Below, one piece after another: positions 1,229 to 19,977 of a DNA stretch of 27,503 nucleotides (positions are counted from its first letter, which is position 1; each line of letters begins with the position of its first letter). Both the position numbers and the translations under genes were made by a program. Below the pieces are notes generated by a model that did no database searches, had not been told where the DNA came from, and saw only the letters and a list, made by a program, of their open reading frames with translations. This DNA is from a virus, in IMG/VR virus record IMGVR_UViG_3300025168_015645, positions 1 to 27,503 of that record; one strand, 5' to 3'.

Positions 1229-3169
1229 TTACGCTACTGGACTAACTGTCAAGAATACTTGTAACTTTGTTACATCGCCCGAATTGCCTACCACATGGGG
1301 GAATATCCATTCATCTGCATTCAGTGTTGAACCTTCACTGCTAGAAACACCAGTTAATTCCGAAAAGTATTTTTTAAATCCAACAGATCCTTCAAACGTA
1401 ATTCCTGTCTGATCTGCCCCACCGGTTCTACCTATCTCTAAGGTACTACCACCCGTTCCAATAGCGGAAGAAAATAAAGCTAGACTAGGTGCCCTTTTAA
1501 ACTCAACTCTAATTTGTTTATCGGATCCGGATATACCATCGTTAACATAAGCAGACGCTTTAAAAATATGACAATCTGATGGAACTTGCTTCAACGCATC
1601 TAATTTATCACCAGTGGTGATGGGTGAACCATTACCATCTATTATAAATCCAATCGAGGATGTTACACCACCTCCACCACCAGAAGCAGCAGTTCTCATA
1701 TTAGTACCATCAGAGAATGTAAGTCCACCCGGTCCGAGGGTCATTCCTAATGCTCTCATAACTCCAGCATCAAATGTAACACCATCAATAGTTGTGTTGG
1801 TGGCATTCATAGCAAGGCCTATATTACCACCGGCGGATAACTGAAGGTTGTCATTTGCAGGGAACCTTAAGAAAGTATCAGAATCTCCACTGTGGGATAC
1901 CTCTCGGGAAGTCTGGAACGAATAAATGATTGCTCGCATAACACCGTTAGGTGCATCCAAGAAAAGCACATTTGATCCATTATGACTTATATTTTTAGAA
2001 ACAGATCCTCTAAAGTTAAGGTGTTCTTGAATATCCAGATAATCAAGCGTTGAACCCCCGTCAGCAGATATCCCCAAAGGTAAATGTACTTTTGTAGAAG
2101 TTCCGTGAGCAAACGTATTTCCACCCGCCAGCATAACGACATTATTGGCCGCGGCGAAATCAATATAAGTATCAGTATCAGCATTATGTGACAACTTAGA
2201 ATTAATCTTAACATCAGGAGCATTTAAAGATATGCTAGTAGCAGCAGTTTGAGTAATTACATTGTGACTATCCCTGATCAGTATTTTAGTGCCGTTATTT
2301 ACACCATCCGCGTCACCTATTTGTACGTTCACGTTACTAACATCTAAAAACGCTTCCCCGTCTGGGTTACGCATGTGGAAAGCGGCTGGAGTGTGCATGT
2401 CGCCGCCGATGGTAATTCCTCCAGACGAAGAAATACCAGCAACGGGTAACGTAAGTCCATTCGTTGTCACATCACCGGTTAATCCATTGAATGATGTTAC
2501 AATAGTCTCGGCGGAAGTTCCATCGGGGAATCTGAACGCCTTAGCTCTTATCCTTTGCTCTCCCTGATCAACAAATATACTGACTACCTTACCTGATCCA
2601 CCAGTGCTTCCCTGAAGGAAAGAACTCGTAACATCAAGGTTGGGATCAGAATACGTTGAGTGATCGGAATCTACCTCAAAGATTTTTGTTCTGTCTTCAG
2701 ATCCCACAATCACATTAATTTTTGAACTGGTTCCGTTATTTGCTATACCACTCAATTCTGTACGAAAATCTCCACCGGCGTTATCAAACTTATGGATTGA
2801 TAATGCACCAGTAGTATCATTGTATATAAATTGACCATTAGATGTTGCGTTTGGAATATTCAATACACCAGTTACAACGGTATATGTGTATTTCGCCCTA
2901 CCAGAAGAACTCTTAAGTGCATCATAATCAAATTTTACATTTGCGGTATTACCAGATTTCGTAACTGTAAGAGTTAATCCAGAAGTTCCACTGTCAAACT
3001 GCAAACCACTAGAACCAGAGACTGATCCGGCACCAGTAATTCCAATCTCTCGTATACCATCACCGCTGAATGTTTTTTCCCATGCAGAGCCGTTAAACTC
3101 CCACGTTTTTTCTGCAATCGCATGGGTTAAGCCGGTACTGGGATTATTTGGAAAATCGTAATCAGGCAT
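1229..3169 (-). CDS. Tail-fibre-like structural protein, 646 aa
   Basis: The N-terminus (MPDYDFPNNPSTG, then WEFNGSAWEKTF) matches the short opening of many marine phage tail-fibre and appendage proteins (a DFPxxPxxG start followed by W-x-FNGxAW). The body is rich in Gly, Ser, Thr, Asn and Asp. It contains SFNGLTGDVT, a common fibre motif, and two related segments, HNADTDTYIDF (about residues 328-338) and HSGDSDTFLRF (about 425-436), each followed by an AGG turn; this motif recurs in cyanophage fibres. A Gly-rich linker (GGGGGV, near residue 495) precedes a C-terminal domain starting IGFIIDGNGSPITTGDK, which resembles beta-sandwich domains on phage structural proteins. No enzyme motif was seen. 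It starts 9 bases after the stop of the collagen-like gene, so both probably share one late transcript. The virion-appendage role is likely; whether it is a long fibre or an accessory fibre cannot be told. Confidence 0.82.
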   Translation of the reverse strand: MPDYDFPNNPSTGLTHAIAEKTWEFNGSAWEKTFSGDGIREIGITGAGSVSGSSGLQFDSGTSGLTLTVTKSGNTANVKFDYDALKSSSGRAKYTYTVVTGVLNIPNATSNGQFIYNDTTGALSIHKFDNAGGDFRTELSGIANNGTSSKINVIVGSEDRTKIFEVDSDHSTYSDPNLDVTSSFLQGSTGGSGKVVSIFVDQGEQRIRAKAFRFPDGTSAETIVTSFNGLTGDVTTNGLTLPVAGISSSGGITIGGDMHTPAAFHMRNPDGEAFLDVSNVNVQIGDADGVNNGTKILIRDSHNVITQTAATSISLNAPDVKINSKLSHNADTDTYIDFAAANNVVMLAGGNTFAHGTSTKVHLPLGISADGGSTLDYLDIQEHLNFRGSVSKNISHNGSNVLFLDAPNGVMRAIIYSFQTSREVSHSGDSDTFLRFPANDNLQLSAGGNIGLAMNATNTTIDGVTFDAGVMRALGMTLGPGGLTFSDGTNMRTAASGGGGGVTSSIGFIIDGNGSPITTGDKLDALKQVPSDCHIFKASAYVNDGISGSDKQIRVEFKRAPSLALFSSAIGTGGSTLEIGRTGGADQTGITFEGSVGFKKYFSELTGVSSSEGSTLNADEWIFPHVVGNSGDVTKLQVFLTVSPVA

Positions 3170-3178
3170 TTATTTCTC

Positions 3179-5823
<2,645 letters not shown>

Positions 5824-5841
5824 AATGACTCCATTTAGTAG

Positions 5842-5849
5842 TATTTATA
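5842..5849 (-). promoter_or_regulatory. T4-type late promoter TATAAATA overlapping a stop codon
   Basis: The minus strand reads TATAAATA. The TAA inside it (5845-5847) is the stop codon of the GT32-like gene. Downstream, a start about six bases on leaves a leader of roughly 13 bases containing GGAG before the ATG at 5823. This is good promoter geometry and it marks the boundary between the early/middle operon and the late fibre genes. Confidence 0.65.
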
Positions 5850-6768
5850 GGATTCCGCGGTCCGTCAAAAGATTATTAGTTCTTTCTCTAAGAAGATCAA
5901 ACTTCGATCCAACTTCAATTGGTTTATCTTTATTAGAAGTGTTGTGCCAATGCCAAGCAAACGAGTCTAAGAAAAGATTATTCTTTGCACTATTATTTTT
6001 GTTAGTAAACCAATTTTCCTCAGTTTCAACACTAAGGTTTTCATCAGTTTTACTAATCAACCATTCAGTATTGAAAAATGTGGAAGGGAAAATGGTAAAG
6101 TTAGGATATACTTTCCACAATTCTGCAAAGGTATCCTTACCCCATATCGTACCACCGGTAGTAGGCATAGTTTTTAGAACTTCCAGCATCTTGTATGAAA
6201 ATTCACTTTGCTTCTTCATTGATAAAATAGTTGCACATGCACCTTGATTTGCATAATCAGTTTCGGATCCCCATTGGTACATGTATTCTTGATCTAAAAT
6301 TGGTTTGAAGTCACGAAGAAAAACAATGTCCATATCTGCCCACACACCACCGTACTTGTGAAGAATCAACAAACGAAAAAGATCTGACTGAAGATAGTGC
6401 TTTGAATCCGCAGCGGCCAATTTTTCATGCTCATTTTCCATAGGCGTTCCTTTCGCCTCTTCGATTGGATCATAAACTTGAAATTCTATATAATCTTTAT
6501 ACGGACCTTCCAGCGGGGCGAGTAATTCGTTATCTGTTATATCGTAGTCAGACCATAATTTAAGTTTAGTCTTCTCTAGATTCTGAGTTGCTAAAAATGA
6601 TTTAACACACTCTAACTCTTTAACAGTTTTAATTTCGGTGTAGATATGAAAAGTGGTTACCTCATCAGGGTAATCGTAATTCTTATCATCTATTGTACTT
6701 AAATAATCAAGTCCGGCTTTATAATCAAAATAAAGTTCCGGATTTGTTTCTTTTGAAATGTCTATCAT
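5845..6768 (-). CDS. GT32-like (DXD) glycosyltransferase, 307 aa
   Basis: The hallmark is SDLFRLLILHKYGG followed by VWADMDIVFLRDF at residues 128-153. This is the sugar-binding DXD region of the Gly_transf_sug (GT32-like) family, with DMD at 145-147 binding the metal and the nucleotide-sugar. An aromatic, histidine-containing C-terminus (AFAWHWHN-like segment near residues 265-275) is usual for the family. These enzymes commonly transfer hexoses onto oligosaccharide chains from UDP- or GDP-sugars. There is no signal peptide or membrane helix, so it would act in the cytoplasm or at the inner face of the membrane. The ATG overlaps the stop of the preceding methyltransferase gene (ATGA). It is the last gene before the late promoter. 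Donor and acceptor cannot be told. Confidence 0.88.
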   Translation of the reverse strand: MIDISKETNPELYFDYKAGLDYLSTIDDKNYDYPDEVTTFHIYTEIKTVKELECVKSFLATQNLEKTKLKLWSDYDITDNELLAPLEGPYKDYIEFQVYDPIEEAKGTPMENEHEKLAAADSKHYLQSDLFRLLILHKYGGVWADMDIVFLRDFKPILDQEYMYQWGSETDYANQGACATILSMKKQSEFSYKMLEVLKTMPTTGGTIWGKDTFAELWKVYPNFTIFPSTFFNTEWLISKTDENLSVETEENWFTNKNNSAKNNLFLDSFAWHWHNTSNKDKPIEVGSKFDLLRERTNNLLTDRGIL

Positions 6769-7256
6769 TTTATAACTCCATAGTTTTTAAAATCTTGAAA
6801 TTCTCTGTCTTCTCTAATCGCATTAAAAAAATGTCTATCATCCGATCTTTCTATGTCATCAACAAAAATAACAACATTATCCGTAGGAAGGAAAGAAAAA
6901 AGTTCTATCAGGTTACGCCTGGATCCGCCTGCTGGACCATCAACTAAAATCGCATCATAATCTATGTTGGATGCAAAGACTAAAACCTCGTCTATGGGGT
7001 AGCACATATTTTCATACGAGTCGCCTACCAATGGACAGTGTAAGTAATTATTGTGATAACGATCCGAGTAGTCTTTGTTTTCCTCGATAGAAAAGACTTT
7101 ATACCCCAGATCAATTAAGGCTTTCGTTCCTTTTCCACTTCCAAATTCTAAAATAGTTTTTCCTTTTTCGAGTTCAGAAATTATTTTTTCTATCATAGGT
7201 TCTCTTAAACTACCGTAAGGGAGTCTGCGCCATTCTGGCATTTCTGGTATATCCAT
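6765..7256 (-). CDS. Small class I SAM-dependent methyltransferase-like protein, 163 aa
   Basis: Motif I, TILEFGSGKGTKALIDLG, lies near residues 34-51. It is followed by an acidic strand end (VFSIEENKDY) and by the motif IV-like segment DYDAILVDGPAGGSRR near 118-133, then VVIFVDDIER. This order fits a compact class I SAM methyltransferase. At 163 residues it is shorter than usual and lacks a clear extra substrate domain. Its place between an aminotransferase and a glycosyltransferase suggests it methylates a sugar or other small group made by the cassette, which is inference. The start codon shares one base with the upstream aminotransferase stop (TAATG). The fold call is fairly secure; the substrate is unknown. 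Confidence 0.72.
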   Translation of the reverse strand: MDIPEMPEWRRLPYGSLREPMIEKIISELEKGKTILEFGSGKGTKALIDLGYKVFSIEENKDYSDRYHNNYLHCPLVGDSYENMCYPIDEVLVFASNIDYDAILVDGPAGGSRRNLIELFSFLPTDNVVIFVDDIERSDDRHFFNAIREDREFQDFKNYGVIK

Positions 7257-8410
7257 TACTTACTTATTCCATAGTATGATTTTATTTTGTTTATTATGTA
7301 TTTCTGATCTTTCCACTTCAATTTAAACGATGATGGTAATGAAATACCTCTCTTGTAAAAATACTCACTTACTGGGTAATTGGCAACAGTACTTCTATAT
7401 TTTTTGTAGCAAGGTTGCATATGTAAAGGCATAAAAAACATTCGGGTTTGTATGTTACTATCCCGTAGAGTTGACATTAAATCATCTCTATCATCAGTTA
7501 GGAATGAAGTAAACCAATGTACAGGTGTACTTCTGGGATCGAAATATGTAGGATTAAACTTACCGTATAAGCAAGACAATCCATCCACGTATCTGTCATG
7601 TACTTTTTTCTTCTTACTAATTATTTTTTCTAACTTACCCATCTGTGCTATTCCTATTGCAGCCTGCATATCAGTGAATGCAAAATTGTAGCCAACATGT
7701 TCATGTTCAAAAATACCCTTTGTATCACGACCATGATTTTTAAGTCGATAACATTGAGTCTTTAAGTCATCATTATTTGTCACAACAACTCCGCCTTCTC
7801 CACATGTTATTGTTTTGTTGCCGTAATAGGAAAAAACACCAATATCACCAAAAGTCCCAACATGCTGTCCATTGAATTTGACACCAACACCCTGAGCAGC
7901 ATCCTCTATACACTTTAGTCCATTCTTTCTACAAAACCTCATGATGAGATCCATATCTGCTGCCTGACCATAAAGATGGACAGGCATAATTGCAGCAGTT
8001 CTATCCGAAAGATATATCGGTAGTTTATTAGGACATATCTGCATTGTCCGTTCGTCGATCTCACAGAAAATTGGTTTTGCACCCGCTAATGTTACAGCGT
8101 TTGCACTGGCAACAAAAGTTAGATTGGGTACAAGAACTTCATCACCTGCACCTATACCGAGAGATTTAAGGGCGCAAAATAAAGCAGCAGTGCCATTTGT
8201 CATGGCAACTGCATGCTTTGCTCCTGCAAGATTAGCAACTATATTCTCAAACTCTGCTGTCAACTTATTTTCAACAACATAAGTTGACTTGATAACTCGT
8301 TTAAGTTGTTTTAATTCTTTACCATCAATCCAAGGTTCAATCTGTGGAATAAATGGTCTTGTGTGCTTTTTGTTCCCGAACCAATGAATCATATTTTTCA
8401 TTAACCTCAT
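7256..8410 (-). CDS. DegT/DnrJ/EryC1/StrS aminotransferase, perosamine-synthase-like
   Basis: A PLP-dependent sugar aminotransferase of about 384 residues, normal for the family. TNGTAAL (71-77) forms the phosphate-binding loop, CIEDAAQGVG includes the pyridine-binding Asp at 170, and GNKTITCGEGG contains the Schiff-base Lys at 199. The text around these (LVPNLTFVASANAV, PVHLYGQAADMD, GYNFAFTDMQAAIGIAQ) closely matches my memory of Vibrio RfbE/Per, which turns GDP-4-keto-6-deoxy-D-mannose and glutamate into GDP-perosamine. Other 4-aminosugar products are possible. It overlaps the DUF6165-like gene by 74 bases. In-frame ATGs at 8401 and 8392 are alternative starts, and GAGG sits just before the 8401 ATG, so the first codons are uncertain. 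Its product would supply an amino sugar to the adjacent glycosyltransferases. Confidence 0.92.
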   Translation of the reverse strand: MRLMKNMIHWFGNKKHTRPFIPQIEPWIDGKELKQLKRVIKSTYVVENKLTAEFENIVANLAGAKHAVAMTNGTAALFCALKSLGIGAGDEVLVPNLTFVASANAVTLAGAKPIFCEIDERTMQICPNKLPIYLSDRTAAIMPVHLYGQAADMDLIMRFCRKNGLKCIEDAAQGVGVKFNGQHVGTFGDIGVFSYYGNKTITCGEGGVVVTNNDDLKTQCYRLKNHGRDTKGIFEHEHVGYNFAFTDMQAAIGIAQMGKLEKIISKKKKVHDRYVDGLSCLYGKFNPTYFDPRSTPVHWFTSFLTDDRDDLMSTLRDSNIQTRMFFMPLHMQPCYKKYRSTVANYPVSEYFYKRGISLPSSFKLKWKDQKYIINKIKSYYGISK

Positions 8411-8714
8411 TTTTTACAATAAATCTGTCATCATTATACTTTGCATTGTCTCTGGCAGCAAGAATAAAATCACCAACTGCAAGATCATCCTTTCGCAATT
8501 TATCCTCGGTGTCCCATATAGTTTCATTTATTTTTTTAAGTCTATCATAAAAAATATCATCTACATGAATACCGTTATTTTTCAGAGCCTTTTCTAGGAT
8601 ACTCAACTCCATTATAACATGATCCAATCGATTTGGATCTTTTATTCTTTCTATTTTGATTTGAAGTATTGTAATCTTATCAACAACTTCACCTATTGCA
8701 ACTTCAACTAGCAT
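8337..8714 (-). CDS. DUF6165-like small protein, 125 aa
   Basis: The protein begins MLVEVAIGEVVDKITILQIK and continues as a predicted helical coil with many Lys, Glu and Leu residues (IERIKDPNRLDHVIMELSIL). From memory this matches the DUF6165 family, small proteins that often sit among glycosyltransferase genes; their function is not established. No catalytic motif, signal peptide or membrane segment is visible. The gene overlaps both neighbours: 11 bases with the upstream glycosyltransferase-like gene and 74 bases with the downstream aminotransferase. The start is an ATG. A helper or adaptor role in glycan assembly is a guess from context only. Confidence 0.72.
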   Translation of the reverse strand: MLVEVAIGEVVDKITILQIKIERIKDPNRLDHVIMELSILEKALKNNGIHVDDIFYDRLKKINETIWDTEDKLRKDDLAVGDFILAARDNAKYNDDRFIVKNEVNEKYDSLVREQKAHKTIYSTD

Positions 8715-9393
8715 ATTCTATAACCTTCCATTCTTTAGTGTGACGACCTAATGGATGTTCACGAAAATCATGGAAATATAAATCCCCACCAACATCAAAA
8801 TGCTCTACCATAGATTTAAAAGAACTCTCCATTACATGTATCTCTTTCGCCTTCTCCAAAATCATAGGGAAATGAAAAATATTCTCTGTTATATCATTTC
8901 TGATGATCTTCAAATCATTATCAATATCTATCTTAAAACCTCTAGCCTCATCATCGTGTACAAATATATATTCTTCATCCGAGGGATTTAATTTGTTATA
9001 AACTCTTCTCTCTTCATCCATATCTCTACTGACATTGAAGTAGTCATACTTAACATCATAATCAAACTCTAGTTGTTCATAGAAATACTCCCAACAATTT
9101 TTATCGTTGGATGGATTTTGGGGATAGTGTTGGTGTCCAACGCTGAAAAAATCATCTATTGTTGACTCATTTTCGACCGTGAATGTCTTAACATCTTGAT
9201 ACTCATTCTTTACTAGATTAACATTTATACTTTCACTATCTCTATACATGTATTCTACCATATCAAAGTATTGAGGTTTAGAGAATACTTGAATTATATT
9301 TTCGTCGTATAGTTCAGAAAAATATCTAACCATACCGTTACAATCAATGTGATCACCCAAGCCTAAGTGGTGATGTATTACTATGCTATTCAC
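8704..9393 (-). CDS. Putative GT-B type glycosyltransferase-like protein, 229 aa
   Basis: The N-terminus IVIHHHLGLGDHIDCNGMVR resembles the first strand and GLGD loop of GT-B glycosyltransferases of the heptosyltransferase or fucosyltransferase kind, and EYIFVHDDEARG is like the start of their second Rossmann domain. Near the C-terminus IHVMESSFKSMVEHF fits the nucleotide-binding SSF-type segment. At 229 residues it is short for two full GT-B domains, so it may be minimal or divergent. The start is GTG at 9393, overlapping the upstream gene by 8 bases; no ATG lies nearby. Being inside an uninterrupted glycosyltransferase cluster supports the call, but sequence evidence alone is modest. Confidence 0.65.
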   Translation of the reverse strand: MNSIVIHHHLGLGDHIDCNGMVRYFSELYDENIIQVFSKPQYFDMVEYMYRDSESINVNLVKNEYQDVKTFTVENESTIDDFFSVGHQHYPQNPSNDKNCWEYFYEQLEFDYDVKYDYFNVSRDMDEERRVYNKLNPSDEEYIFVHDDEARGFKIDIDNDLKIIRNDITENIFHFPMILEKAKEIHVMESSFKSMVEHFDVGGDLYFHDFREHPLGRHTKEWKVIEYAS

Positions 9394-10240
9394 GTATTTT
9401 CTCCATATGTGTATTGATCATTAAAAAAGTACTGCAATTAGAAAAATCATAATTATCATTTGATATGTTGGTAAAGAAAGATTGATTTACATCTTCCCAA
9501 TTGTCCAAAAAGATAGAGGGTAAATTCCAATCATCATAAATGAACTTGACATTACTTTTTTTCATTATAGGAACAGACCCCACAAGAAGACACTCGTAAT
9601 TTCTATGAGTGTCATAACCAGCACCTTCCAAACAAATGCAGTATTTGTATTTGGAAAGTAGTTTTAAATATTCATGAAAAGATAACTTTTCCTCCTGAAC
9701 ATCCACAAAGTCTAGTGTCTTCAAATATTCTATTGATTTTTGACGAATCGGATTTGTAGATGCTGTATGATAAGGCAGTAATATTTTATTGATCATATCA
9801 TCAGACTTAGAATTTAAAAATTTCCTGAGTGTGATCTGATTACCACCATCTCTTTCCTTCTCTTCAAAACCTATGGGTAACCCCGTAACTTTTTCATGTT
9901 TGATCGGAGGATTTGTGCAAAACCATCTCGTAACAAAAGGATTGTCCAGAATAGGTTGATAATCATCAGTAGTATATGATGATATACCGCTAACCAAAGT
10001 AAAAGGATTTTGTATCTTTGGTAAAATTTCTTGTTGAAAGTAACTGTTCTTTAGATAGTCTGTTTTCACGAAAACAATATCACCTTTCGCCACAGAAGGT
10101 GCAGTTTCCTCATTCAGTTCAGGAGGGGAGCATTGTTTAGAAACTTGATTGCTAATATAAAATTCCTCAGAATGATCTAATGACCAATCAGCAAAACAAG
10201 GCATCCAATTATAATTAATTATGTCATTTTTATTATACAT
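9386..10240 (-). CDS. Exostosin-like (GT47-type) glycosyltransferase, 284 aa
   Basis: The C-terminal half carries LSKYKYCICLEGAGYDTHR and then NYECLLVGSVPIMKKS (about residues 195-229). This is the nucleotide-sugar-binding signature of exostosin-like GT-B enzymes: an acidic Gly turn, a D-THR motif, and a Glu followed by GxVPI. The first 120 residues (VFVKTDYLKNSYFQ, SGISSYTTDD, LPIGFEEKER) fit the acceptor-side domain. I chose the ATG at 10240; the reading frame opens one codon earlier at a TTG. The gene overlaps both neighbours, by 8 bases each side. Donor and acceptor are unknown. No membrane segment is seen, so it would act on a cytoplasmic or membrane-facing acceptor. Confidence 0.83.
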   Translation of the reverse strand: MYNKNDIINYNWMPCFADWSLDHSEEFYISNQVSKQCSPPELNEETAPSVAKGDIVFVKTDYLKNSYFQQEILPKIQNPFTLVSGISSYTTDDYQPILDNPFVTRWFCTNPPIKHEKVTGLPIGFEEKERDGGNQITLRKFLNSKSDDMINKILLPYHTASTNPIRQKSIEYLKTLDFVDVQEEKLSFHEYLKLLSKYKYCICLEGAGYDTHRNYECLLVGSVPIMKKSNVKFIYDDWNLPSIFLDNWEDVNQSFFTNISNDNYDFSNCSTFLMINTHMEKIRE

Positions 10241-10910
10241 CAATTCCCAATTCTTTCAAATCATTTTCCCAATCACCCGCGTAGTTGTCATTTTCATCAA
10301 ACACCTGTCCTATAAACTTCACCAAAGGATCATCGTCTCTACTCATAGGAAATGGTTTGTTCTCAAAAAATTCATCATGGACATGCACATCTTCTGATGA
10401 CAACTTCTCATATACATGTCTTAGAAATTCTTGATCACTGCCCTTTTTATCGGGCTGTATTTCTAACCATTTGTATGAAAGATTTTTAACATCGTCACTC
10501 AGAACTGGTTTGCACCCCCACATACCGCCCATTATAGGCATTCCATGATAAGGATGATCTCTCATGATATGAAATTTCTTTCCGCTTTCAACCCAGTCAT
10601 CAATGGCAGACTTTTCCCTTATACCCAAACGGGAATCTGTATCACGAGATATCATATAATCAACAGAAGGATCAAACGCAGGTTCAAATCTCCAAAACAT
10701 TGAATGGGGAGTTCCGGGAGAACTTCTTCTCACAACTTGACAATTTTCCATAGATTCTAGTCGAGTGCTCACTAATGTAGGAACTGTATTAGCGATATAG
10801 AATCTACAAATCCAATCTGGAAATAATTCTTTTGCGATTTCAGCATTCCTCATAGCACCCGCAGTATAAAGTGGATTATTGCCCCACAAAGAAAAACAGA
10901 TTAGTTTCAT
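10233..10910 (-). CDS. DXD-containing GT-A-like glycosyltransferase, 225 aa
   Basis: The protein begins MKLICFSLWGNNPLYTAGAM and has VDYMISRDTDSRLGIREK at about residues 83-100, where DTD (90-92) is a DXD metal and sugar-nucleotide motif. It is followed by HIMRDHPYHGMPIMGGMWG, a conserved-looking acceptor loop with His, Asp and Gly-Gly. This arrangement recurs in small bacterial and phage glycosyltransferases near capsule loci, but I cannot place it in a numbered GT family. The start ATG overlaps the stop of the GT2 gene (ATGA) and the end overlaps the exostosin-like gene. There is no signal peptide. Confidence 0.75.
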   Translation of the reverse strand: MKLICFSLWGNNPLYTAGAMRNAEIAKELFPDWICRFYIANTVPTLVSTRLESMENCQVVRRSSPGTPHSMFWRFEPAFDPSVDYMISRDTDSRLGIREKSAIDDWVESGKKFHIMRDHPYHGMPIMGGMWGCKPVLSDDVKNLSYKWLEIQPDKKGSDQEFLRHVYEKLSSEDVHVHDEFFENKPFPMSRDDDPLVKFIGQVFDENDNYAGDWENDLKELGIDV

Positions 10911-11530
10911 TTTAGTATAGACTCCGTTTTTTCTGAACTATAATTATAATGATGTAAAATTTTATCTAAGACCATCTCACTTTTTACCTTCGGGTATAAA
11001 CGAAGCAACCAATCTGCATCTTCGCAGGACTGGCCTCTCTCATCATATTTTTTCATAAATCTTTCCGACTTAGAAATCTCTGATCGAAAAGGACACATAT
11101 GAAACGGAGGTCGATAAATGTCACTATAAGACTCTGTTTTTACGTTATACTTTAATGGATCCATAGGAGTCCATTGATGATTGATAGAAAAGTGAACATC
11201 AAAAGGCTTGTTATTGTAATTACAATGTTGCTTGAATGATATTACATCTGGCTTATCATCCATAACACTAAGAACCGCTGGAACATAATCATGTGAAACT
11301 AAATCATCGTCGTCAATAAAAGCAGTATATTCACCTCTAGCCATATCCAATAATTCATTTCGTTTTTCGTAGATATGAAAAGATTTATTATCAACTAATG
11401 TCAAAACCTCAACATTATCTCCAGTTATCTGAGCAGATAACTGTTCATATAATATTTTTAGTTTTTCAATTCGTTGGGGAATTGATAATATAAGTATACT
11501 TAATTTTATATCAGACGCTTGCTTTGGCAT
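10907..11530 (-). CDS. GT2 family glycosyltransferase, 207 aa
   Basis: A short inverting GT-A enzyme. The strand LSILILSIPQR opens the fold, LLDMARGEYTAFIDDDDLVS (residues 61-79) carries the metal-binding DDDD at 73-76 after the usual ARGEY helix, and GQSCEDADWLLRLYP near residues 170-184 holds the ED pair typical of the GT2 catalytic-base region. All core elements are present although the protein is smaller than many GT2 enzymes. It starts with ATG at 11530, overlapping the preceding GT10-like gene by 20 bases, and overlaps the next gene by 4. Sugar specificity cannot be read from the sequence. Confidence 0.88.
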   Translation of the reverse strand: MPKQASDIKLSILILSIPQRIEKLKILYEQLSAQITGDNVEVLTLVDNKSFHIYEKRNELLDMARGEYTAFIDDDDLVSHDYVPAVLSVMDDKPDVISFKQHCNYNNKPFDVHFSINHQWTPMDPLKYNVKTESYSDIYRPPFHMCPFRSEISKSERFMKKYDERGQSCEDADWLLRLYPKVKSEMVLDKILHHYNYSSEKTESILK

Positions 11531-12347
11531 AATAATTACTCACAATAGTATGGACTCGGTCAGAAAAATTCGCGTACAGTTTTGCTCTTCGTTTATTATC
11601 TTCAATAACACTTTTTAGATTACTGTAGTATTCTGGTGTCAAAGAATTCACTTTATGTATTAACTCATCCGTAGAGTCAAATGATATTATACCTGTATTA
11701 TCAAAAAAATCATTTATATTAGGACAGCCCCAATAAACCGGAATGGTTTCACTTAAAAAACAATCTACAATTTTTTCAGTAAAGTAGTTATGCACCGATT
11801 GATTTTCCGTGCATATATGAAACATAGAGTTAAACAAACAATCCTTTTCCCCGTCGATCAATGGTTTAGGAGAAATATCAAAAGCCTTAGTGCTAGTGAA
11901 GAAATTAGTAGGAATACCAATCTCTTGCTGCCTTCTCCATATTTCTCGTCTATGATAATATCCAGGTCTATCGATAGGATACCAAGATGCCAGAAAAGAA
12001 ACATCATAATTAGACTCGTAGTTCTTTTCCTCATATTCGCCGAGTCCATCGGGATGCTCAATAGAACCACGATTCAACCACGTAGATCCATAAGGAAAAA
12101 ATACTGCATTGCTAAACTCATCAACGATATCAGAATCATGAGTTAGTATTAGATCGTGATCATTTTTAATCCTGAGATCATCAATGGTAACTCGATTGGG
12201 AGATAAATTGGACTCTGTAGTTAATATCAAAACCCTATAATTTGAACAAACAATAGTTGATGGTCTACAAACATCTATTTGACATGGAAAATCTAAAGAA
12301 AAATCTTCGGGAAAAAGATAACTCCCATGATTAATGATTGGTTTCAT
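11511..12347 (-). CDS. GT10 (alpha-1,3/1,4-fucosyltransferase-like) glycosyltransferase, 278 aa
   Basis: The segment FHICTENQSVHNYFTEKIVD then CFLSETIPVYWGCPNINDFFD (about residues 176-216) is the GDP-sugar-binding motif of GT10 fucosyltransferases (ENS/NYxTEKL-D-F-GTIPVYWG-P). A basic segment (YHRREIWRRQQE, 131-142) lies before it. GT10 enzymes transfer L-fucose, and in some bacteria related sugars, from GDP donors. The donor may be made by the fucose/colitose synthase-like and ColD-like genes immediately upstream, which is a coherent local pathway. Its ATG overlaps the ColD-like stop (ATGA). Length is in the range of bacterial GT10 proteins. A second GT10-like gene lies at 14384-15259. Confidence 0.88.
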   Translation of the reverse strand: MKPIINHGSYLFPEDFSLDFPCQIDVCRPSTIVCSNYRVLILTTESNLSPNRVTIDDLRIKNDHDLILTHDSDIVDEFSNAVFFPYGSTWLNRGSIEHPDGLGEYEEKNYESNYDVSFLASWYPIDRPGYYHRREIWRRQQEIGIPTNFFTSTKAFDISPKPLIDGEKDCLFNSMFHICTENQSVHNYFTEKIVDCFLSETIPVYWGCPNINDFFDNTGIISFDSTDELIHKVNSLTPEYYSNLKSVIEDNKRRAKLYANFSDRVHTIVSNYYAKASV

Positions 12348-13495
12348 ACCTCATCCAGTAACGTTACAAGATCCAGAACCATATCCTCATTTACTTTATG
12401 ATTGTTCCCAACATACAAACCATTATGATGAATATAATTTGAATTTGTATCGTATTGAAACATATTTACATTCTTCATAAAGGGATGTTCATATAAACTC
12501 CCAGCAATAATAGGTCTGATATGAATATTATTATCGATCAACTTACTCTTTACTTCTGATACCCTATCATCTTTACGAATAATAGGAAAACAGAAGTTCG
12601 AACATCCCTCATAATCAAAGTCCGTGATATACTTCTCGGGATTTAGGCGAGAGATAAAGGTAGAAAAGTTTTTATTTCTTATGGCAATCTTTTCGTCCAA
12701 ATCTTTAATCTGTTCCATGCCAAGAATTGCATTAAGTTCAGTGGATCTCATGTTGAAACCCGGAATCATGAAAGTAAAACTAGGATCAACCTCTTGATCC
12801 TTATACTTCTTCTGATTACTTTCTGGTAACTCCCTCAGTAGTCCATGAGAACGAAGTAGAAGTAACCTCTCGTACACTTCTTCATCATCAGTACAAACCA
12901 TACCACCCTCTATAGTTGTCATGTGGTGACCATAGTAGAAAGAGAATGTTGAGACATCACCGAAGTTTCCAACCTTCACTCCATTGTGATTTGCACCATG
13001 AGCCTCACAACAATCTTCCATAATTCTAACATCATAGTTTTCACATAGACGTTTTAGTTCTTCTGAATAACAATCAAATCCTAGAAGATGTACAAGAATT
13101 AGATACTTTGGTTTTTGGGTTTTAAATATATGTTCTAGATTATCCAAATCCGGTCCAAAGTTCTGAAGATTAACATCACATAGTTGTAGATTATCACCCC
13201 GTAATAGTATAGGAGAAACTGTGGTAGACCATGTACAAGCTTGCGATACCCATAAAGCAGAACCATGTCCTTCTTCCAAAGCATTCACCGCAAGAAAATT
13301 TGCAGAAGATCCAGAATTGCAAAAAACAGAGTACTTACAACCCTGCCATTCAGACCACATCTTTTCGAACTTCTTTATGTTTTCACCATATGTCAGTTTA
13401 CTTCCAGACATGATAAAATCTGACATCTTTTTAAGATGTTCATTGGGTATTGCTTCGTCCATCAATTTCCATACATCAAAACTTTTAGTCATCAT
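12344..13495 (-). CDS. colD-like: ColD-like GDP-4-keto-6-deoxy-D-mannose 3-dehydratase (PLP enzyme)
   Basis: An aminotransferase-fold PLP protein of 383 residues. SGSSAN (61-66) binds the cofactor phosphate and EDCCEAHGA holds the ring-binding Asp161. Where the family has its Schiff-base Lys this protein reads FYYGHHMTTIEGG, with His190-His191. His in place of Lys is the hallmark of ColD (and of E1/RfbH) sugar 3-dehydratases. Further matches to E. coli ColD as I remember it are DDEEVYERLLLLRSHG, PGFNMRSTELNA, HIRPIIAG and NGLYVGN. ColD removes the C3 hydroxyl of GDP-4-keto-6-deoxy-D-mannose, with glutamate as amino donor, on the way to GDP-L-colitose. No Fe-S cysteine cluster of the E1 kind stands out. 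ATG overlaps the fcl-like stop. Confidence 0.9.
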   Translation of the reverse strand: MMTKSFDVWKLMDEAIPNEHLKKMSDFIMSGSKLTYGENIKKFEKMWSEWQGCKYSVFCNSGSSANFLAVNALEEGHGSALWVSQACTWSTTVSPILLRGDNLQLCDVNLQNFGPDLDNLEHIFKTQKPKYLILVHLLGFDCYSEELKRLCENYDVRIMEDCCEAHGANHNGVKVGNFGDVSTFSFYYGHHMTTIEGGMVCTDDEEVYERLLLLRSHGLLRELPESNQKKYKDQEVDPSFTFMIPGFNMRSTELNAILGMEQIKDLDEKIAIRNKNFSTFISRLNPEKYITDFDYEGCSNFCFPIIRKDDRVSEVKSKLIDNNIHIRPIIAGSLYEHPFMKNVNMFQYDTNSNYIHHNGLYVGNNHKVNEDMVLDLVTLLDEV

Positions 13496-14418
13496 ATTCT
13501 AGCTTTCTTATAGTTTTGCACAAACCACTTGATTGTCTTTCTTATACCAACATCAATTGGTGTCAAGTTCGGTGCTCCAATCTCATAAAATTTATTAGAG
13601 TCGGAAGGTTTTCTTAATTGTCCAGACATCTCTCCGTTATAAAATACAGTACCAGAAAAATCAAATTCTTCTTTTATAATTTGTACCACATCTCGTATTT
13701 CGTATTCCTCTTCTGGAGATATAATCAAAGGTATAGATTCGTTATAGTCATCTAATGCCCAATTAACTATCTGGTTTAGATCCTGACTGAACAAAAATTC
13801 TCTCTTCTCTTTACCAGTTCCCCAAATTTCAACATCATCACCATTATTATGAGCCAAATAAAACTTATGAATTAAAGCAGGTAATACATGAGAGGTTTCG
13901 AGATTAAAATTATCATCGGGTCCATATATGTTGCATGGTATAAGAGATATGATATTCATACCATACTCTTCTCTGTACGCCATAGATTGTATATGAAGCA
14001 TCCTCTTTGCGTATGCGTACCCATAATTACTTTCATGGGGAGGACCGGAAGTTATTTGTTCTGGTGTTAGAGGGTACGTTGCTTCATCAGGAAAAATACA
14101 CGTAGATAAAAAAGATACAACCTTCTGTACTTTATAGACTCTACAGGCCTCAAACAAGTTAAGACCCATTAACATATTTTCCCGGAAGAAGGTAGCCTTC
14201 TTCTCCATATTTGCTTTAATACCACCAACTCTACCCGCACAATGAACAACTCGGTGAGGTAAATTATCCTCAAACCATTCTATTGTTGAGGTAGGAGACA
14301 GTAGATTTAATTTTTTACTCGATGGTTTCATACCACCGCCCAAGGCAGATCCAACTAAACCAGATCCACCCGTTATCAAATCTTTACTCTGAAAATATTT
14401 CTCTTGCAATTGCATCAT
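13492..14418 (-). CDS. fcl-like: GDP-L-fucose synthase / GDP-L-colitose synthase-like SDR epimerase-reductase
   Basis: An extended short-chain dehydrogenase of 308 residues. ITGGSGLVGSAL (15-26) is the NADP-binding turn and AGRVGGIKAN follows the second strand. STCIFPD carries catalytic Ser105 and Cys107, YAYAK gives Tyr134 and Lys138, and SHVLPALIHK gives His177, so the full epimerase-reductase set is present. WGTGKEKREFL and GPDDNFN are also typical. The text is very close to animal GDP-fucose synthase (TSTA3). Fcl makes GDP-L-fucose from GDP-4-keto-6-deoxy-D-mannose; the homologous ColC makes GDP-L-colitose from the ColD product, and with a ColD-like gene next door either is possible. Start uncertain: ATGs at 14418 and 14415 give a 13-residue leader overlapping the previous gene, while a TTG at 14379 would begin right at the Rossmann strand. 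Confidence 0.93.
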   Translation of the reverse strand: MMQLQEKYFQSKDLITGGSGLVGSALGGGMKPSSKKLNLLSPTSTIEWFEDNLPHRVVHCAGRVGGIKANMEKKATFFRENMLMGLNLFEACRVYKVQKVVSFLSTCIFPDEATYPLTPEQITSGPPHESNYGYAYAKRMLHIQSMAYREEYGMNIISLIPCNIYGPDDNFNLETSHVLPALIHKFYLAHNNGDDVEIWGTGKEKREFLFSQDLNQIVNWALDDYNESIPLIISPEEEYEIRDVVQIIKEEFDFSGTVFYNGEMSGQLRKPSDSNKFYEIGAPNLTPIDVGIRKTIKWFVQNYKKARI

Positions 14419-15259
14419 CAACCATTTCTAATGTTTTCACAATTTCTAAATTGCTTTCAATATAGGGTATCATATCACGATAAAGATCATCTGTCAACAT
14501 ATTTAGATCCATATCATCATCATACTTAATGATTCCCCTCTCATCAAAATAGTCTCCGATGTTTGGACAACCCTTGTACACTGGAATTGTTCCTGTTGCA
14601 AAACAATCTGTTATTTTCTCTGTGTAAAAATTATTCTCAAATTCATTTTCTACTACCAAATGAAATCGGTAATCAGCAATACCATCTCTTTTGTCATTCC
14701 ACTTCTGTTCTAGATTTTCAGATATTCCAATCCGAGAAGATCCAAATGCTCCCCCGTAAAGATCTAATTTATCTTTATGCTTCTGGGCAACAGTATGTCT
14801 ATACTTATGCCCTTCACACATTTGTTTAGGAGAACAGAACATTGAAATATCTTTTGTTTTATCATAGAGTCTCCAGTCATCTTCCGATATCCAAGGTAGA
14901 TTACTGACAGGAGGGCATGCAATAAACTTATCACTCAGAGATAATAATTTTTCACTGCAAGTAAAGATACCCTCAAAGGATCCAAACTCAAATATAACAT
15001 CCTTGAACTCTAGTAGGTTCTGTACAACTTCAGGGATAATCGACAAAGATTCACAAACCCAACCATACCTATCGGTACCATCAGAGATAGGTAATCTATC
15101 GGCAAACATTATTGATCGATCAACTAAAACCTGTTTATCAGAATCTTCTGTTGTCCACTCAAAAGTCTTTGGTTTTTTATTTGAACATGAAGACATACTG
15201 GGATCAAATCCCGCACCGAACACTTGTACCTTTTTCATAATATTCCCGTTGTTTGCCAT
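14384..15259 (-). CDS. Second GT10 (fucosyltransferase-like) glycosyltransferase, 291 aa
   Basis: Residues about 199-238 read FHLVVENEFENNFYTEKITD then CFATGTIPVYKGCPNIGDYF, the GDP-sugar-binding signature of GT10 enzymes with ENxxxxxxYTEKI and GTIPVYxG intact. SMFCSPKQMCEGHKYRH near residues 139-155 resembles the CS-K-x-x-x-GH-x-R segment that contacts GDP. It shares only the signature with the other GT10-like protein at 11511-12347, so the pair is not a recent duplicate. Two starts are possible: ATG at 15259, with GAGGA nine bases upstream, and ATG at 15238, which makes an ATGA overlap with the previous stop and gives MKKVQVFGAG. I kept the first for its better ribosome-binding site. Confidence 0.86.
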   Translation of the reverse strand: MANNGNIMKKVQVFGAGFDPSMSSCSNKKPKTFEWTTEDSDKQVLVDRSIMFADRLPISDGTDRYGWVCESLSIIPEVVQNLLEFKDVIFEFGSFEGIFTCSEKLLSLSDKFIACPPVSNLPWISEDDWRLYDKTKDISMFCSPKQMCEGHKYRHTVAQKHKDKLDLYGGAFGSSRIGISENLEQKWNDKRDGIADYRFHLVVENEFENNFYTEKITDCFATGTIPVYKGCPNIGDYFDERGIIKYDDDMDLNMLTDDLYRDMIPYIESNLEIVKTLEMVDDAIAREIFSE

Positions 15260-15867
15260 TTTATAAGTTCCTCATCAACTCCCATTTTCCGTAATCCATC
15301 TATTTTTGAATCAACGTCAGACAGTCCCATTTCAATCACAGTTTGTTCATCAGTATAACCAGGCCAAACACAATAAATACCATCGAATAAACCATACTCG
15401 ATAGTATCTGATTTTTCATGAATTACTTTGAATAAAGTTTCGTGATCAAAATACCTATCCTCTAAAGCAGAAACCTTTGCAGATTCATTAATCCAAGACT
15501 TTAGAAAGTAAACAGATTTTTCGTTATAGTTAAAAACTATAGGTGATGCTTTTATTCCAGCAAAGCTTTGATTCGCACTTGCAAATACAACATCAACCCT
15601 ATCCAATGGACAATTGAAAAATGCATCCGGTCTTTTCTTAAAGACTGTATCCACATCAATCCAGCAAACAGGTTCTCGGTATTCCGATAATTTTTCAAGA
15701 ATGAATTTAGGTTTTGATAAACAGTTATCTCTGTAACTGCCAAGAGATTCTTTTTCTACCATATCAACCTCAATGTCGAAGGTAGAGCACATTTGTTCTA
15801 GATTTTTAGAACAACGGCTATAATAATCTTTACCGTCAACATCACAATAAAAAGTAATAATTTTCAT
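15235..15867 (-). CDS. DXD glycosyltransferase-like protein, about 210 aa
   Basis: From ATG at 15867 the protein reads MKIITFYCDVDGKDYYSRCS, a usual first strand for a nucleotide-diphospho-sugar transferase. EPVCWIDVDTVFKKRP contains the DXD motif DVD at 71-73. KPKFILEKL before it and the acidic segment DRYFDHETLFKVI after it fit GT-A enzymes of the DUF273/GT77-like sort, though I do not assign a family. The reading frame also opens at a GTG at 15885 that overlaps the regA stop (GTGA) and would add six residues; neither start has a strong ribosome-binding site. It is the first gene after regA, so it marks the junction between replication genes and the glycan cassette. Confidence 0.78.
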   Translation of the reverse strand: MKIITFYCDVDGKDYYSRCSKNLEQMCSTFDIEVDMVEKESLGSYRDNCLSKPKFILEKLSEYREPVCWIDVDTVFKKRPDAFFNCPLDRVDVVFASANQSFAGIKASPIVFNYNEKSVYFLKSWINESAKVSALEDRYFDHETLFKVIHEKSDTIEYGLFDGIYCVWPGYTDEQTVIEMGLSDVDSKIDGLRKMGVDEELIKWQTTGIL

Positions 15868-15881
15868 AATGTAGTATAATC

Positions 15882-16283
15882 TCACTTTCCTATATGGTAT
15901 TTAGGAACTAATTCCCATTCATTTTTATTCTTGTGCGAAATAATTTTTATCTGGCCCATATTGGCAAGCGGATCGATAATATCATTAGGATTTATTATAT
16001 CACATAAATCCCATTCTTCCAGTAATTTTGCAATTAAATTTCTTCTACCAACATCACTTTCGGAAATGCTACTTTCAAGACCATCTAGTATAAAAAGTTC
16101 TTTAAAGTGGAGTATAGAATATCTACCCCTCTTATGCAGAATGTGACATGATTGAAATAATTTGTTTTCTTTTCTGGAAGAAACACCAATTCGGGTGAGT
16201 GTCTCTTTGATAACTAAAAAGTCTTCTTCTTGATCAATCTTAATTTCCACCCCAAGACCCATAAATATGTCTTCTGTGTCCAT
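15882..16283 (-). CDS. regA: RegA translational repressor
   Basis: The 133-residue protein matches T4 RegA (122 aa) along its length as I recall it: EEDFLVIKETLTRIG, QSCHILHKRGRY, LHFKELFILDG, RRNLIAKLLEEWDLCDI, and the C-terminal NEWELVPKYHIGK. RegA binds the start regions of many early phage mRNAs and blocks their translation, including its own and clamp-loader messages in T4. The gene follows gp62 as in T4. Its ATG lies directly after a 13-bp RNA stem that contains its own ribosome-binding site GGGG and the gp62 stop codon, so expression is probably coupled to gp62 translation. Downstream, where T4 has DNA polymerase gene 43, this phage has the glycosyltransferase cassette. Confidence 0.96.
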   Translation of the reverse strand: MDTEDIFMGLGVEIKIDQEEDFLVIKETLTRIGVSSRKENKLFQSCHILHKRGRYSILHFKELFILDGLESSISESDVGRRNLIAKLLEEWDLCDIINPNDIIDPLANMGQIKIISHKNKNEWELVPKYHIGK

Positions 16284-16321
16284 AATAAAACCCCATGTTT
16301 TTAAATATATAGGGTTTTATT
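16284..16321 (-). promoter_or_regulatory. RNA hairpin hiding the regA ribosome-binding site
   Basis: In the transcript the gp62 end and regA leader can fold into a 13-bp stem (AAUAAAACCCUAU with AUGGGGUUUUAUU, one G-U pair) closed by a 12-base loop (16297-16308). The 5' arm contains the gp62 stop UAA (16317-16319). The 3' arm contains GGGG (16291-16294), the only ribosome-binding site for regA, seven bases before its AUG. A ribosome finishing gp62 would open the stem. Confidence 0.65.
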
Positions 16322-16712
16322 CACTTTCATCAGACCTTTGATCAACCCCCGCCGAATATATCCTTCTCAGTTCTTCTAAGTAATCTTCAGATAATAGACT
16401 AATCATGTCACCTGCTCTCTTAGAAGAAACTGAGAAATGCTTACTTATCAATTTACAGTCATCCGTCGCACTGAATTTGTGCCATTTTGAGTATCGTTTG
16501 TTCTTTCTGATAGCAGAAAAATAATAATCATACTGAATATCTTTATCCAGAAAATTCATTTGATTCATTATATTTGCATGCATAATAGAATCAATGAAGA
16601 ATGAAAAGTATTTGTTTCCCATGTAAGGAATATACCCAGTTTTTACACTGGGATCTTCTGGATATTCTTTTTTCGAGTAAGAGAGATTATTAAATATATC
16701 AAATAGTTTCAT
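16317..16712 (-). CDS. 62: Clamp loader small subunit gp62
   Basis: From ATG at 16712 the protein is 131 residues, beginning MKLFDIFNNLSYSKKEY. It contains YFSFFIDSIMHANIMNQMN, then DIQYDYYFSAIRKNKRYSKW and a C-terminal helix LLSEDYLEELRRIYSA. This matches the gp62 pattern of marine T4-like phages and the RGKRYGKW region of T4 gp62. It is clearly shorter than T4 gp62 (187 aa), as is usual in the marine relatives I recall. With gp44 it would form the clamp loader that places gp45 on DNA. The frame also opens at a GTG at 16757, but the ATG start fits the family better and overlaps the sulfotransferase gene by only 14 bases. In T4 gene 62 lies next to gene 44; here the sulfotransferase separates them. 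Confidence 0.86.
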   Translation of the reverse strand: MKLFDIFNNLSYSKKEYPEDPSVKTGYIPYMGNKYFSFFIDSIMHANIMNQMNFLDKDIQYDYYFSAIRKNKRYSKWHKFSATDDCKLISKHFSVSSKRAGDMISLLSEDYLEELRRIYSAGVDQRSDESE

Positions 16713-17322
16713 TCTTGAGATCACTTTCTCTTTTTGCGATAAGACTTCTAAGTTCACCTATTGAGTTTGAATGTGGAAAATCAACATATTTCGGAACATT
16801 AAGATTTAAGAATTCACAAAGTTCATTCCAGCCATGACCATGCTCCCAGCAAACCTCAAGAAAATTATTAGGCTTGTCTACAAAAAACTCTCTAACTTCC
16901 GAATTGTGAGATTCGTATCTTTCAATAAAAAGTTTAGCATCTGGATAATCCCTTGATTCCGGATCAATTTGATCTACTCTCTGGTGAGCCTTCCAGAAAT
17001 TTATTTCACTGTTAGCAACCTTCTGGGAAGAAGATCTGGTAGTCAAAATAAATTTAGCATCTGGATATAAATTGTAACACTGCTTATAGGACCATATCCA
17101 AGGATGATCCGAGAAGGCATTATACATCGAAGTTATTTCTTTGATTGCATTAAGTTCGTTTGAAGTAAATGTATGATTGATAAAATCATAATCTATATCG
17201 GGAAGATTAGTGAAAGCATCAAAATACTTTATAGGGGGAACATGTTTAAAATTTAGAAGAGTCAGGGCATGTTCCAAAGAAGTCGTACCCGTCTTGAACA
17301 TTCCTACACCAAAAACTTTCAT
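16699..17322 (-). CDS. Sulfotransferase family protein, 207 aa
   Basis: The N-terminus MKVFGVGMFKTGTTSLEHAL is the PAPS 5'-phosphosulfate-binding loop of sulfotransferases (K10 and the TGTTSL turn). DAKFILTTRSSSQKVANSEI near residues 88-107 fits the 3'-phosphate-binding strand with its Arg and Ser. The later part (NFLEVCWEHGHGWNELCEFL) fits the C-terminal region of the short bacterial and phage sulfotransferase proteins. Such enzymes move sulfate from PAPS to hydroxyls on sugars, lipids or proteins. The gene sits between gp44 and gp62, which are normally adjacent, with ATGA overlap to gp44 and 14 bases overlap to gp62. It is therefore an accessory insertion that kept translational coupling. 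Sulfation of a glycan made by the cassette downstream is a reasonable idea, not shown. Confidence 0.88.
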   Translation of the reverse strand: MKVFGVGMFKTGTTSLEHALTLLNFKHVPPIKYFDAFTNLPDIDYDFINHTFTSNELNAIKEITSMYNAFSDHPWIWSYKQCYNLYPDAKFILTTRSSSQKVANSEINFWKAHQRVDQIDPESRDYPDAKLFIERYESHNSEVREFFVDKPNNFLEVCWEHGHGWNELCEFLNLNVPKYVDFPHSNSIGELRSLIAKRESDLKNETI

Positions 17323-19131: not shown

Positions 19132-19977
19132 TTAAAAATCTTCTATATGCTCCGTTAAATTCTTTAATTTATTCTTAATCATATAATCTAAAATTTTACT
19201 TCGGTTACCCGAAGATTCAGAAGAAAAGGTTGAAAGTATTTCTTCTTTCTTGTCATCGGGAATCTGATTTAAGTCAATCATTTGCTTATTTCTATTCCAA
19301 TTTTTTGTGTGTTCTTCTTGAACAGCACCAGTTTTCTCTAGACTGTCATACATACTTTCTTTAATTTTCTGTGTCAGTCTTTTTTGTCTCTTGTCTGTAA
19401 CGAAAACATCATTATCTGATAGGATATTTGGAATACCATCAGAAGAATCTCCCGTAAGAATATGCTCCGTAAGAAAATTACTTGGATTTTCACATTCCAA
19501 GAATGTCTTCTTGAGAGGGCTAAATTGTTTGATTCCCGGATAGATTTGTAACTGTTGAAAATCTTTATCATTAGAAATGATTACAATTTTTTCAACCGGA
19601 TGAAATTCCTTGCATAAGATTGCAATGACATCATCGGCTTCAGTTCTGTCTACCTGAATGTTTCTGTAGGGAAATACCTCTCGGATTTCTTTTCTGATCA
19701 TAGACAAGCAATCAAAAATTTCATTCCAATTAATCTTGTCTGATGCCTGCTTTGCTTTTCTATTGGCTTTATATTCCTTGAAGAAATCTTTCCTCCAGCA
19801 ATTTGAGGAATCATGACATATTACTAATTCACCGTATTCTTTCTCGAACTGTGTCTTATACATTCTGTATGTGTTTAAAACGATGTGTCGAAGAATAGAT
19901 TCGTTTATGACGGAATCCTTACCGATTGATTGAAATATGCTAGCCAAGATGATTTGATTGTTATCTAATAGTATCAA
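19132..19977 (-). CDS. rnh: RNase H (T4-type 5'-3' FEN-like nuclease)
   Basis: About 281 residues from TTG at 19977, reading MILLDNNQIILASIF, the usual opening of this family in marine T4-like phages. Acidic metal ligands follow in order: the first Asp in LLDNN, CHDSSNCWRKDFFKEYKANR, EADDVIAILCKEF, ISNDKDFQQLQ, and TGDSSDGIPN. The pattern matches T4 RNase H (305 aa), which removes RNA primers and acts as a 5' nuclease during lagging-strand synthesis. The frame opens 12 bases earlier at another TTG. I chose the second because it overlaps the previous stop as TTGA, like gp44, and starts exactly at the first strand. The 57-aa gene begins immediately after its stop. Confidence 0.94.
   Translation of the reverse strand: MILLDNNQIILASIFQSIGKDSVINESILRHIVLNTYRMYKTQFEKEYGELVICHDSSNCWRKDFFKEYKANRKAKQASDKINWNEIFDCLSMIRKEIREVFPYRNIQVDRTEADDVIAILCKEFHPVEKIVIISNDKDFQQLQIYPGIKQFSPLKKTFLECENPSNFLTEHILTGDSSDGIPNILSDNDVFVTDKRQKRLTQKIKESMYDSLEKTGAVQEEHTKNWNRNKQMIDLNQIPDDKKEEILSTFSSESSGNRSKILDYMIKNKLKNLTEHIEDF

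Follow-up and report, generated by a model that had tools for sequence, protein, structure and literature searches.

Gene content and borders of the island

The window, a 27.5-kb IMG/VR fragment (27,503 nt) analyzed over its whole length, carries all of its main genes on the minus strand. Their order is T4-like: gp55, gp47, a SET protein, gp46, a PALP-like protein, a DNA methylase, RNase H, gp45, gp44, a sulfotransferase, gp62, and regA, preserving the T4-like replication module order gp55-gp47-gp46-RNase H-gp45-gp44-gp62-regA. The gp55, RNase H, gp45, gp44, gp62, and regA genes were identified by profile matches, and gp47 and gp46 via homology and gene order in relatives. regA is followed by 13 cassette genes, a GT2-TPR gene, a collagen-like gene, and fibre-like genes (Table 1). 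Each cassette ORF (5845-15885, minus strand) shares 1-74 nt with its successor, and the first shares 4 nt with regA, such that the reading frames overlap at all junctions from regA to GT32.

An initial sequence-only reading had described a 13-gene overlapping cassette directly behind regA, and all of these ORFs were confirmed. Its tally was also correct: eight glycosyltransferases (GTs), three nucleotide-sugar enzymes (two from the DegT family and one fucose-synthase-type epimerase/reductase), a DUF6165 protein, and a methyltransferase with a weak match (E 0.03). It stopped one gene early, however: the island module also takes in the GT2-TPR gene, and the link to the adjacent GT2-TPR and collagen-like genes was absent from that account. 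The sulfotransferase gene, a possible glycan sulfation enzyme located between gp44 and gp62, probably belongs to the module too.

Table 1. Coordinates of the island, its neighbours, and associated features in the window.
Feature	Position	Strand	Evidence
Fibre-like structural protein, alternative acceptor	1229..3169	-	no confident family
Collagen-like tail-fibre protein, proposed acceptor	3179..4588	-	PF01391 4e-27; PHROG tail-fibre matches
GT2-TPR protein, proposed initiating protein glycosyltransferase	4585..5823	-	PF00535 5e-8
TATAAATA, T4-type late-promoter motif, 26 nt before GT2-TPR start	5842..5849	-	exact match
GT32-like glycosyltransferase (DXD)	5845..6768	-	PF04488 3e-10, PF05704 6e-7
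Small methyltransferase-like protein	6765..7256	-	PF13489 E 0.03 only; PDB methyltransferase E 0.03
DegT aminotransferase, perosamine-synthase-like	7256..8410	-	PF01041 5e-107; best PDB perosamine synthetase 3dr7, 240 bits
DUF6165	8337..8714	-	PF19662 3e-9
Small GT-B, GT9/heptosyltransferase-like	8704..9393	-	AlphaFold pLDDT 84; Foldseek 3tov GT9 2.7e-5, WaaC, TibC
GT47/RXYLT1-like glycosyltransferase	9386..10243	-	PF03016 2e-5 + PF24785 3e-5, below cut-off
GT-A fold glycosyltransferase, no Pfam family	10233..10910	-	AlphaFold pLDDT 77; Foldseek AvpGT 1.7e-7, glycogenins ~1e-6
GT2 glycosyltransferase	10907..11530	-	PF00535 2e-8, phrog_14775
Second GT10 fucosyltransferase-like (FucTb)	11511..12347	-	PF00852 2e-5, over cut-off
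ColD-like PLP 3-dehydratase	12344..13495	-	PDB ColD 199 bits vs 112 for next family
GDP-fucose-synthase-type epimerase/reductase (GMER/Fcl or ColC-like)	13492..14421	-	PF01370 3e-45; PDB human GFS 1e-74
GT10 fucosyltransferase-like (FucTa)	14384..15259	-	PF00852 1e-7; PDB Helicobacter FucT 4e-6
GT77-like glycosyltransferase, conserved first island gene	15235..15885	-	PF03407 E 0.0056, below cut-off
regA, left island border	15882..16283	-	Pfam PF01818 4e-40, phrog_242
Sulfotransferase (Sulfotransfer_4), between gp44 and gp62	16699..17322	-	Pfam PF17784 E 5e-32

Within the replication module, the sulfotransferase gene sits between two clamp-loader genes, and homologues ~50% identical occupy the same place in four relatives (L007, L012, L015, and L021). 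Between relatives L111 and L127 its dS is 0.085 and that of gp44 is 0.68, so the sulfotransferase gene was exchanged recently. The SET-domain protein (25047-25748; PF00856 1.7e-5) between gp47 and gp46 is found in the same place in many relatives. The PALP-fold protein (22551-23321; phrog_7093, threonine dehydratase-like) overlaps the DNA methylase gene, and this pair is likewise conserved.

Glycosyltransferases and nucleotide-sugar enzymes

Six of the cassette glycosyltransferases were recognized by Pfam and two more by predicted fold. Matches exceeded the Pfam cut-off for GT32 (2.8e-10), GT2 (1.8e-8), and two GT10 proteins (1.1e-7 and 2.1e-5), as well as for both DegT proteins, Epimerase, and DUF6165, and fell below it for the GT47/RXYLT1-like (2e-5) and Nucleotid_trans (0.0056) matches. 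The GT-A fold and small GT-B proteins were modelled with AlphaFold from alignments of relatives and then searched with Foldseek; the moderate TM-scores (0.5-0.6) support their fold class rather than an exact family. An RDxDS motif is invariant in the GT-A fold protein. The assignments of the methyltransferase and of three GTs are weak. In 45 of 53 relatives, a homologue of the GT77-like protein follows regA; phage isolates have none.

Among the nucleotide-sugar enzymes, the epimerase/reductase matches NF047922 at 7e-57, although its 193 bits fall short of the 500-bit cut-off for this model. Its catalytic S-C, YxxxK, and H motifs are intact, and its GMER-type fold and motifs do not separate ColC from fucose synthase. 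In the ColD-like protein, the catalytic PLP Lys is replaced by His (FYYGHHMTTIEGG), as is typical of ColD, and this His motif is kept in relatives, while the perosamine-synthase-like DegT aminotransferase retains its catalytic Lys (YGNKTITCGEGG). The ColD, perosamine-synthase, and GDP-fucose-synthase families all use GDP-4-keto-6-deoxymannose; the cassette could yield GDP-fucose, GDP-colitose, and/or GDP-perosamine. No gmd gene was found in the window, which is a fragment, and true gmd genes occur in the islands of three relatives (G011, G012, and G013). An IMG/VR search with ColD alone returned nothing. The proposal that the phage builds its own oligosaccharide is supported by a cassette in which a GDP-fucose-synthase homologue is joined by two enzymes of the GDP-4-keto-6-deoxymannose type, and by the selection acting on these genes (see below).

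Conservation, selection, and exchange of the island

A gp44 scan yielded 80 contigs, of which 53 extend at least 1.5 kb past regA and were used to compare the regA-downstream region, a comparison that the sequence-only reading had proposed. GT10 or GT77-like homologues lie within 3.5 kb after regA in 47 of these 53, and gp43 within that distance in none. The same junctions recur in many independent contigs, which rules out a host or assembly chimera. The suggestion that gp43 had been lost or replaced by the cassette did not hold: in six relatives the gene is displaced ~17-28 kb downstream of regA, beyond the fibre genes, and the window ends before that point. Complete islands follow the order regA, GTs, GT2-TPR, (collagen) fibre, gp43, and uvsX, and members of this family of uncultured T4-like phages carry swappable sets of 10-20 sugar-building genes. 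In ten islands, with 149 ORFs between them, the Pfam families encountered most often were Epimerase (15), GT2 (15), GT10 (12), DegT (8), and FkbM methyltransferase (7).

Purifying selection on the island genes is strong, with dN/dS of 0.02-0.16 between two related islands, comparable to gp44. In the same pair, some cassette genes have a dS far below that of gp44 (FucTb 0.13 and GT2b 0.19 versus 1.32), showing that cassette genes recombine between diverged backbones. Transmembrane segments were absent from 187 of 191 island ORFs, and the other four have one marginal segment each; no ORF has several, and no flippase, polymerase, exporter, or ligase was seen among them. The islands are therefore not complete O-antigen or capsule loci.

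A megablast of the window against phage isolates gave no match, and the regA-gp43 interval of isolates is either short or filled with other inserts. A cyanophage origin was rejected on the absence of psbA from eight long relatives, and the marine SAG virus AG-345-O18 was rejected as a carrier of the regA-gp43 island, its GT10 gene lying far from regA-gp43. In two relatives, gp43 is split into two ORFs (~500 and 370 aa) with several kb of other genes between them: 5017-6531 and 11009-12124 in L116 (G002), and 15098-16612 and 19354 onwards in L120 (G010). The break falls at the same residue (~475-480) in both, with no intein ends seen, and L122 (G012) has the N-terminal half alone before its contig ends.

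A GT2-TPR gene paired with a collagen-like gene

The GT2-TPR gene is the last gene in all complete islands examined and is usually followed by a collagen-like fibre ORF. Its product, 48-61% identical across relatives, combines a GT2 catalytic domain bearing a DXD motif (IDADD, invariant in 12 sequences) with a C-terminal TPR region. In profile comparisons with the PDB, its closest solved relatives are GmaR (1.7e-12) and SunS (2e-8), both of which are polypeptide glycosyltransferases. In the window, the collagen-like OR​F starts within the GT2-TPR stop (4-nt overlap) and encodes 56 uninterrupted GXY triplets. Homologues of the fibre-like protein encoded beyond it adjoin collagen or GT2-TPR genes in relatives.

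For the neighbourhood counts, 80 phage loci with a GT2-TPR protein were found. In 35 of 58 loci, a collagen ORF begins no more than 2 kb downstream of GT2-TPR, compared with 0 of 69 upstream and 1 of 39 at 4-6 kb. With the glycine-rich GGX proteins of high-GC bacteria left out of the collagen counts, a collagen-like ORF lies within 2 kb upstream of bacterial GT2-TPR homologues in 28 of 73 cases and at 2-4 kb in 0 of 65. No collagen ORF separates GT2-TPR from gp43 in 13 of the 28 phage loci with gp43 visible downstream. Phage collagens fall into two groups by their Thr content: Thr fills at least 40% of Y positions in 13 of 49 and at most 9% in the rest. The window protein, with Thr at 1 of 56 Y positions, belongs to the Thr-poor group, as do most of its close relatives. 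A lysyl-hydroxylase route (2OG oxygenase, as in animal or mimivirus collagen) was rejected, the single match lying outside the island in G002. A similar GDxWxDxxxGTLxT...W-E motif closes both the window ORF at 19974-20282 and the C-terminus of the collagen-like protein, looking like a small shared domain of the fibre-tip or carbohydrate-binding type.

Late-promoter motifs

The sequence-only reading had expected the cassette to be made with the replication proteins, with contiguity as its sole basis. The 80 nt upstream of regA contain the T4-type late-promoter core NATAAATA in 43 of 64 unique relatives, as do those upstream of GT2-TPR in 26 of 77. The core is nearly absent before gp44 (1/65), gp62 (0/67), GT77 (2/43), and gp43 (0/21). 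General AT-richness was rejected as the source of the regA-upstream motif, other genes of similar composition being without it. Over the whole window, 6 late motifs were found versus 2.9 expected, not clearly above chance, and the late-promoter argument therefore rests on motif position in relatives. No exact TATAAATA precedes regA in the window. Given the motifs before regA in relatives and before GT2-TPR in the window, late expression alongside virion proteins is no less likely than expression with the replication genes. regA itself may be a late gene in this lineage, given that two thirds of relatives (L003-L082) have the motif immediately upstream of it.

Proposed function and alternatives

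The analysis shows that the phage glycan island is real and conserved, that it is under selection and recombines, and that a protein-glycosyltransferase/collagen-fibre pair is coupled to it. The favoured reading, given a probability of roughly one half, is that the island is a virion-fibre glycosylation system using sugars derived from GDP-4-keto-6-deoxymannose, the presence of sugars on the virion and the role of the fibre as acceptor being inferred. The island, inserted between regA and gp43, would serve fibre glycosylation. GT2-TPR would place the first sugar onto Ser/Thr of the collagen-like and/or the neighbouring fibre protein, as Clostridioides difficile SgtA does on BclA3, and the soluble cassette transferases (two GT10, GT2, GT32, GT47-like, GT77-like, GT-A, and GT9-like) would then lengthen the chain in the cytosol. 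The donors would be GDP-deoxysugars made from GDP-4-keto-6-deoxymannose: fucose or colitose via the GMER-like and ColD-like enzymes, and a perosamine-type amino sugar via the DegT aminotransferase, with the precursor supplied by the host or by a gmd gene outside the window fragment. A sulfate or methyl cap may come last. Swaps of cassette genes would change the sugar coat of the fibre and, with it, adsorption, specificity, or exposure to surface-glycan binders. Somewhat more tentatively, this would be a widespread uncultured T4-like lineage whose collagen-like tail fibres are glycosylated by phage-encoded, recombining oligosaccharide cassettes, the chain being started by a GT2-TPR initiator of the type that also accompanies bacterial collagen-like proteins, in a manner resembling antigen variation on the phage's own adhesion fibres.

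Fibre glycosylation is suggested by the island architecture, the kinship to GmaR and SunS, the collagen adjacency, the SgtA precedent, the Thr-rich collagens of some relatives, the scarcity of transmembrane ORFs, and the late motifs. Counted against it are the Thr-poor window collagen, the collagen-less loci, the lack of gmd in the window, and the weak methyltransferase and three GT assignments, as well as the ability of cytosolic GTs of the cassette families to act on LPS core. Its main rival, though less likely, is remodelling of the host surface, with the cassette making or capping a host LPS or capsule sugar late in infection and so blocking superinfection or re-adsorption of progeny to debris; the fibre gene linkage would then only reflect a shared host-recognition module. 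GTs in pelagimyophage host-recognition clusters have been interpreted in this way (PMC7029224), and LPS loci typically hold GT10, GT9-like, ColD, and perosamine enzymes. The relatives lacking collagen next to GT2-TPR also fit it, as would LPS-core capping. Nevertheless, the island ORFs include no flippase, polymerase, or ligase and essentially no membrane protein, and host-surface remodelling leaves unexplained both the invariant GT2-TPR, whose characterized relatives modify proteins, and the GT2-TPR/collagen linkage in bacteria.

A single GDP-sugar pool and set of GTs might also decorate phage fibres and a host glycan alike, for example by mimicking a host surface sugar. Terminal caps, such as GT10 and sulfotransferase chemistry gives, and an island diversity like that of O-antigens would suit this quite improbable arrangement. 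Glycosylation of phage DNA bases, as in T4, is suggested by the adjoining replication operon, and phages with diverse DNA glycans exist (cited in PMC12619734). It is nonetheless highly improbable: the thymidylate-synthase/dCMP-hydroxymethylase family is found in none of eight long relatives, including contigs of 142 and 157 kb, the T4 DNA-GT family is unmatched, and the motifs are of late type. Non-functional stuffer or passing host DNA, a possibility raised for cyanophage LPS clusters (PMC3037559), is the least credible account, being strongly disfavoured by the low dN/dS and by a position fixed in 47 of 53 contigs.

Relation to known systems

By profile, GT2-TPR matches the GT2 protein glycosyltransferases GmaR and SunS, whose acceptors, flagellin and a bacteriocin peptide, differ from a phage fibre. 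Mycobacteriophage GTs, few in number, reportedly decorate virion proteins of the capsid and tail tube (Freeman, 2023, cited in PMC12619734), a system with no collagen and no island. The ColD-type His dehydratase beside a GMER-type epimerase/reductase recalls the GDP-L-colitose pathway, although the window lacks gmd and GDP-mannose genes. In C. difficile, SgtA, a GT with TPR encoded immediately upstream of bclA3, transfers beta-O-GlcNAc onto Thr, and also Ser, of the collagen repeats in vitro (PMC7157674). The phage pair shares the domain order (GT, then TPR), the position directly upstream of a collagen-like gene, and, as proposed, the initiating polypeptide glycosyltransferase role. In contrast, it is encoded by a phage and backed by a 13-gene cassette of its own for extension and sugars; moreover, BclA3 is an exosporium protein and the window collagen is Thr-poor. 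Because Thr-rich GXT acceptor repeats are missing in the window, the phage pair is considered to work like SgtA/BclA and is not classified as a member of that system.

Among aquatic T4-like phages, the pelagimyophage host-recognition cluster is also a hypervariable island combining tail fibres and GTs, but it lies between vrlC and gp14 (PMC7029224), whereas the window island lies between regA and gp43, consists mostly of glycan genes, and ends with GT2-TPR and collagen. The cyanophage LPS clusters of P-SSM2, S-SM2, and S-SSM7 are similarly large groups of nucleotide-sugar enzymes and GTs, with a GT10 homologue in S-SM2, and are located near hli03/phoH and tRNAs (PMC3037559). In S-SM2, regA and gp43 are ~1.3 kb apart, and no T4-like isolate has a GT2-TPR homologue. 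No description of a regA-gp43 island or of phage GT2-TPR/collagen pairs was found in the open-access literature.

The usual interpretation of GTs in aquatic T4-like phages is host LPS modification or DNA protection. The fixed GT2-TPR/collagen pair ending the complete islands examined offers a concrete alternative, glycosylated tail fibres, with both enzyme and acceptor named. If true, it would connect phage fibres with the collagen glycosylation of spore coats, and virion glycosylation would come to include multi-enzyme systems that also synthesize sugars. The recurrence of this pairing across bacterial phyla points to a general class of glycosyltransferases for collagen-like proteins, and the bacterial GT2-TPR and collagen-like genes possibly form a general collagen-glycosylation pair. 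In the bacterial loci (L132-L211), GT2-TPR adjoins collagen-like genes, many of them dense in GXT repeats, in Actinobacteria, Proteobacteria, Firmicutes, and others.
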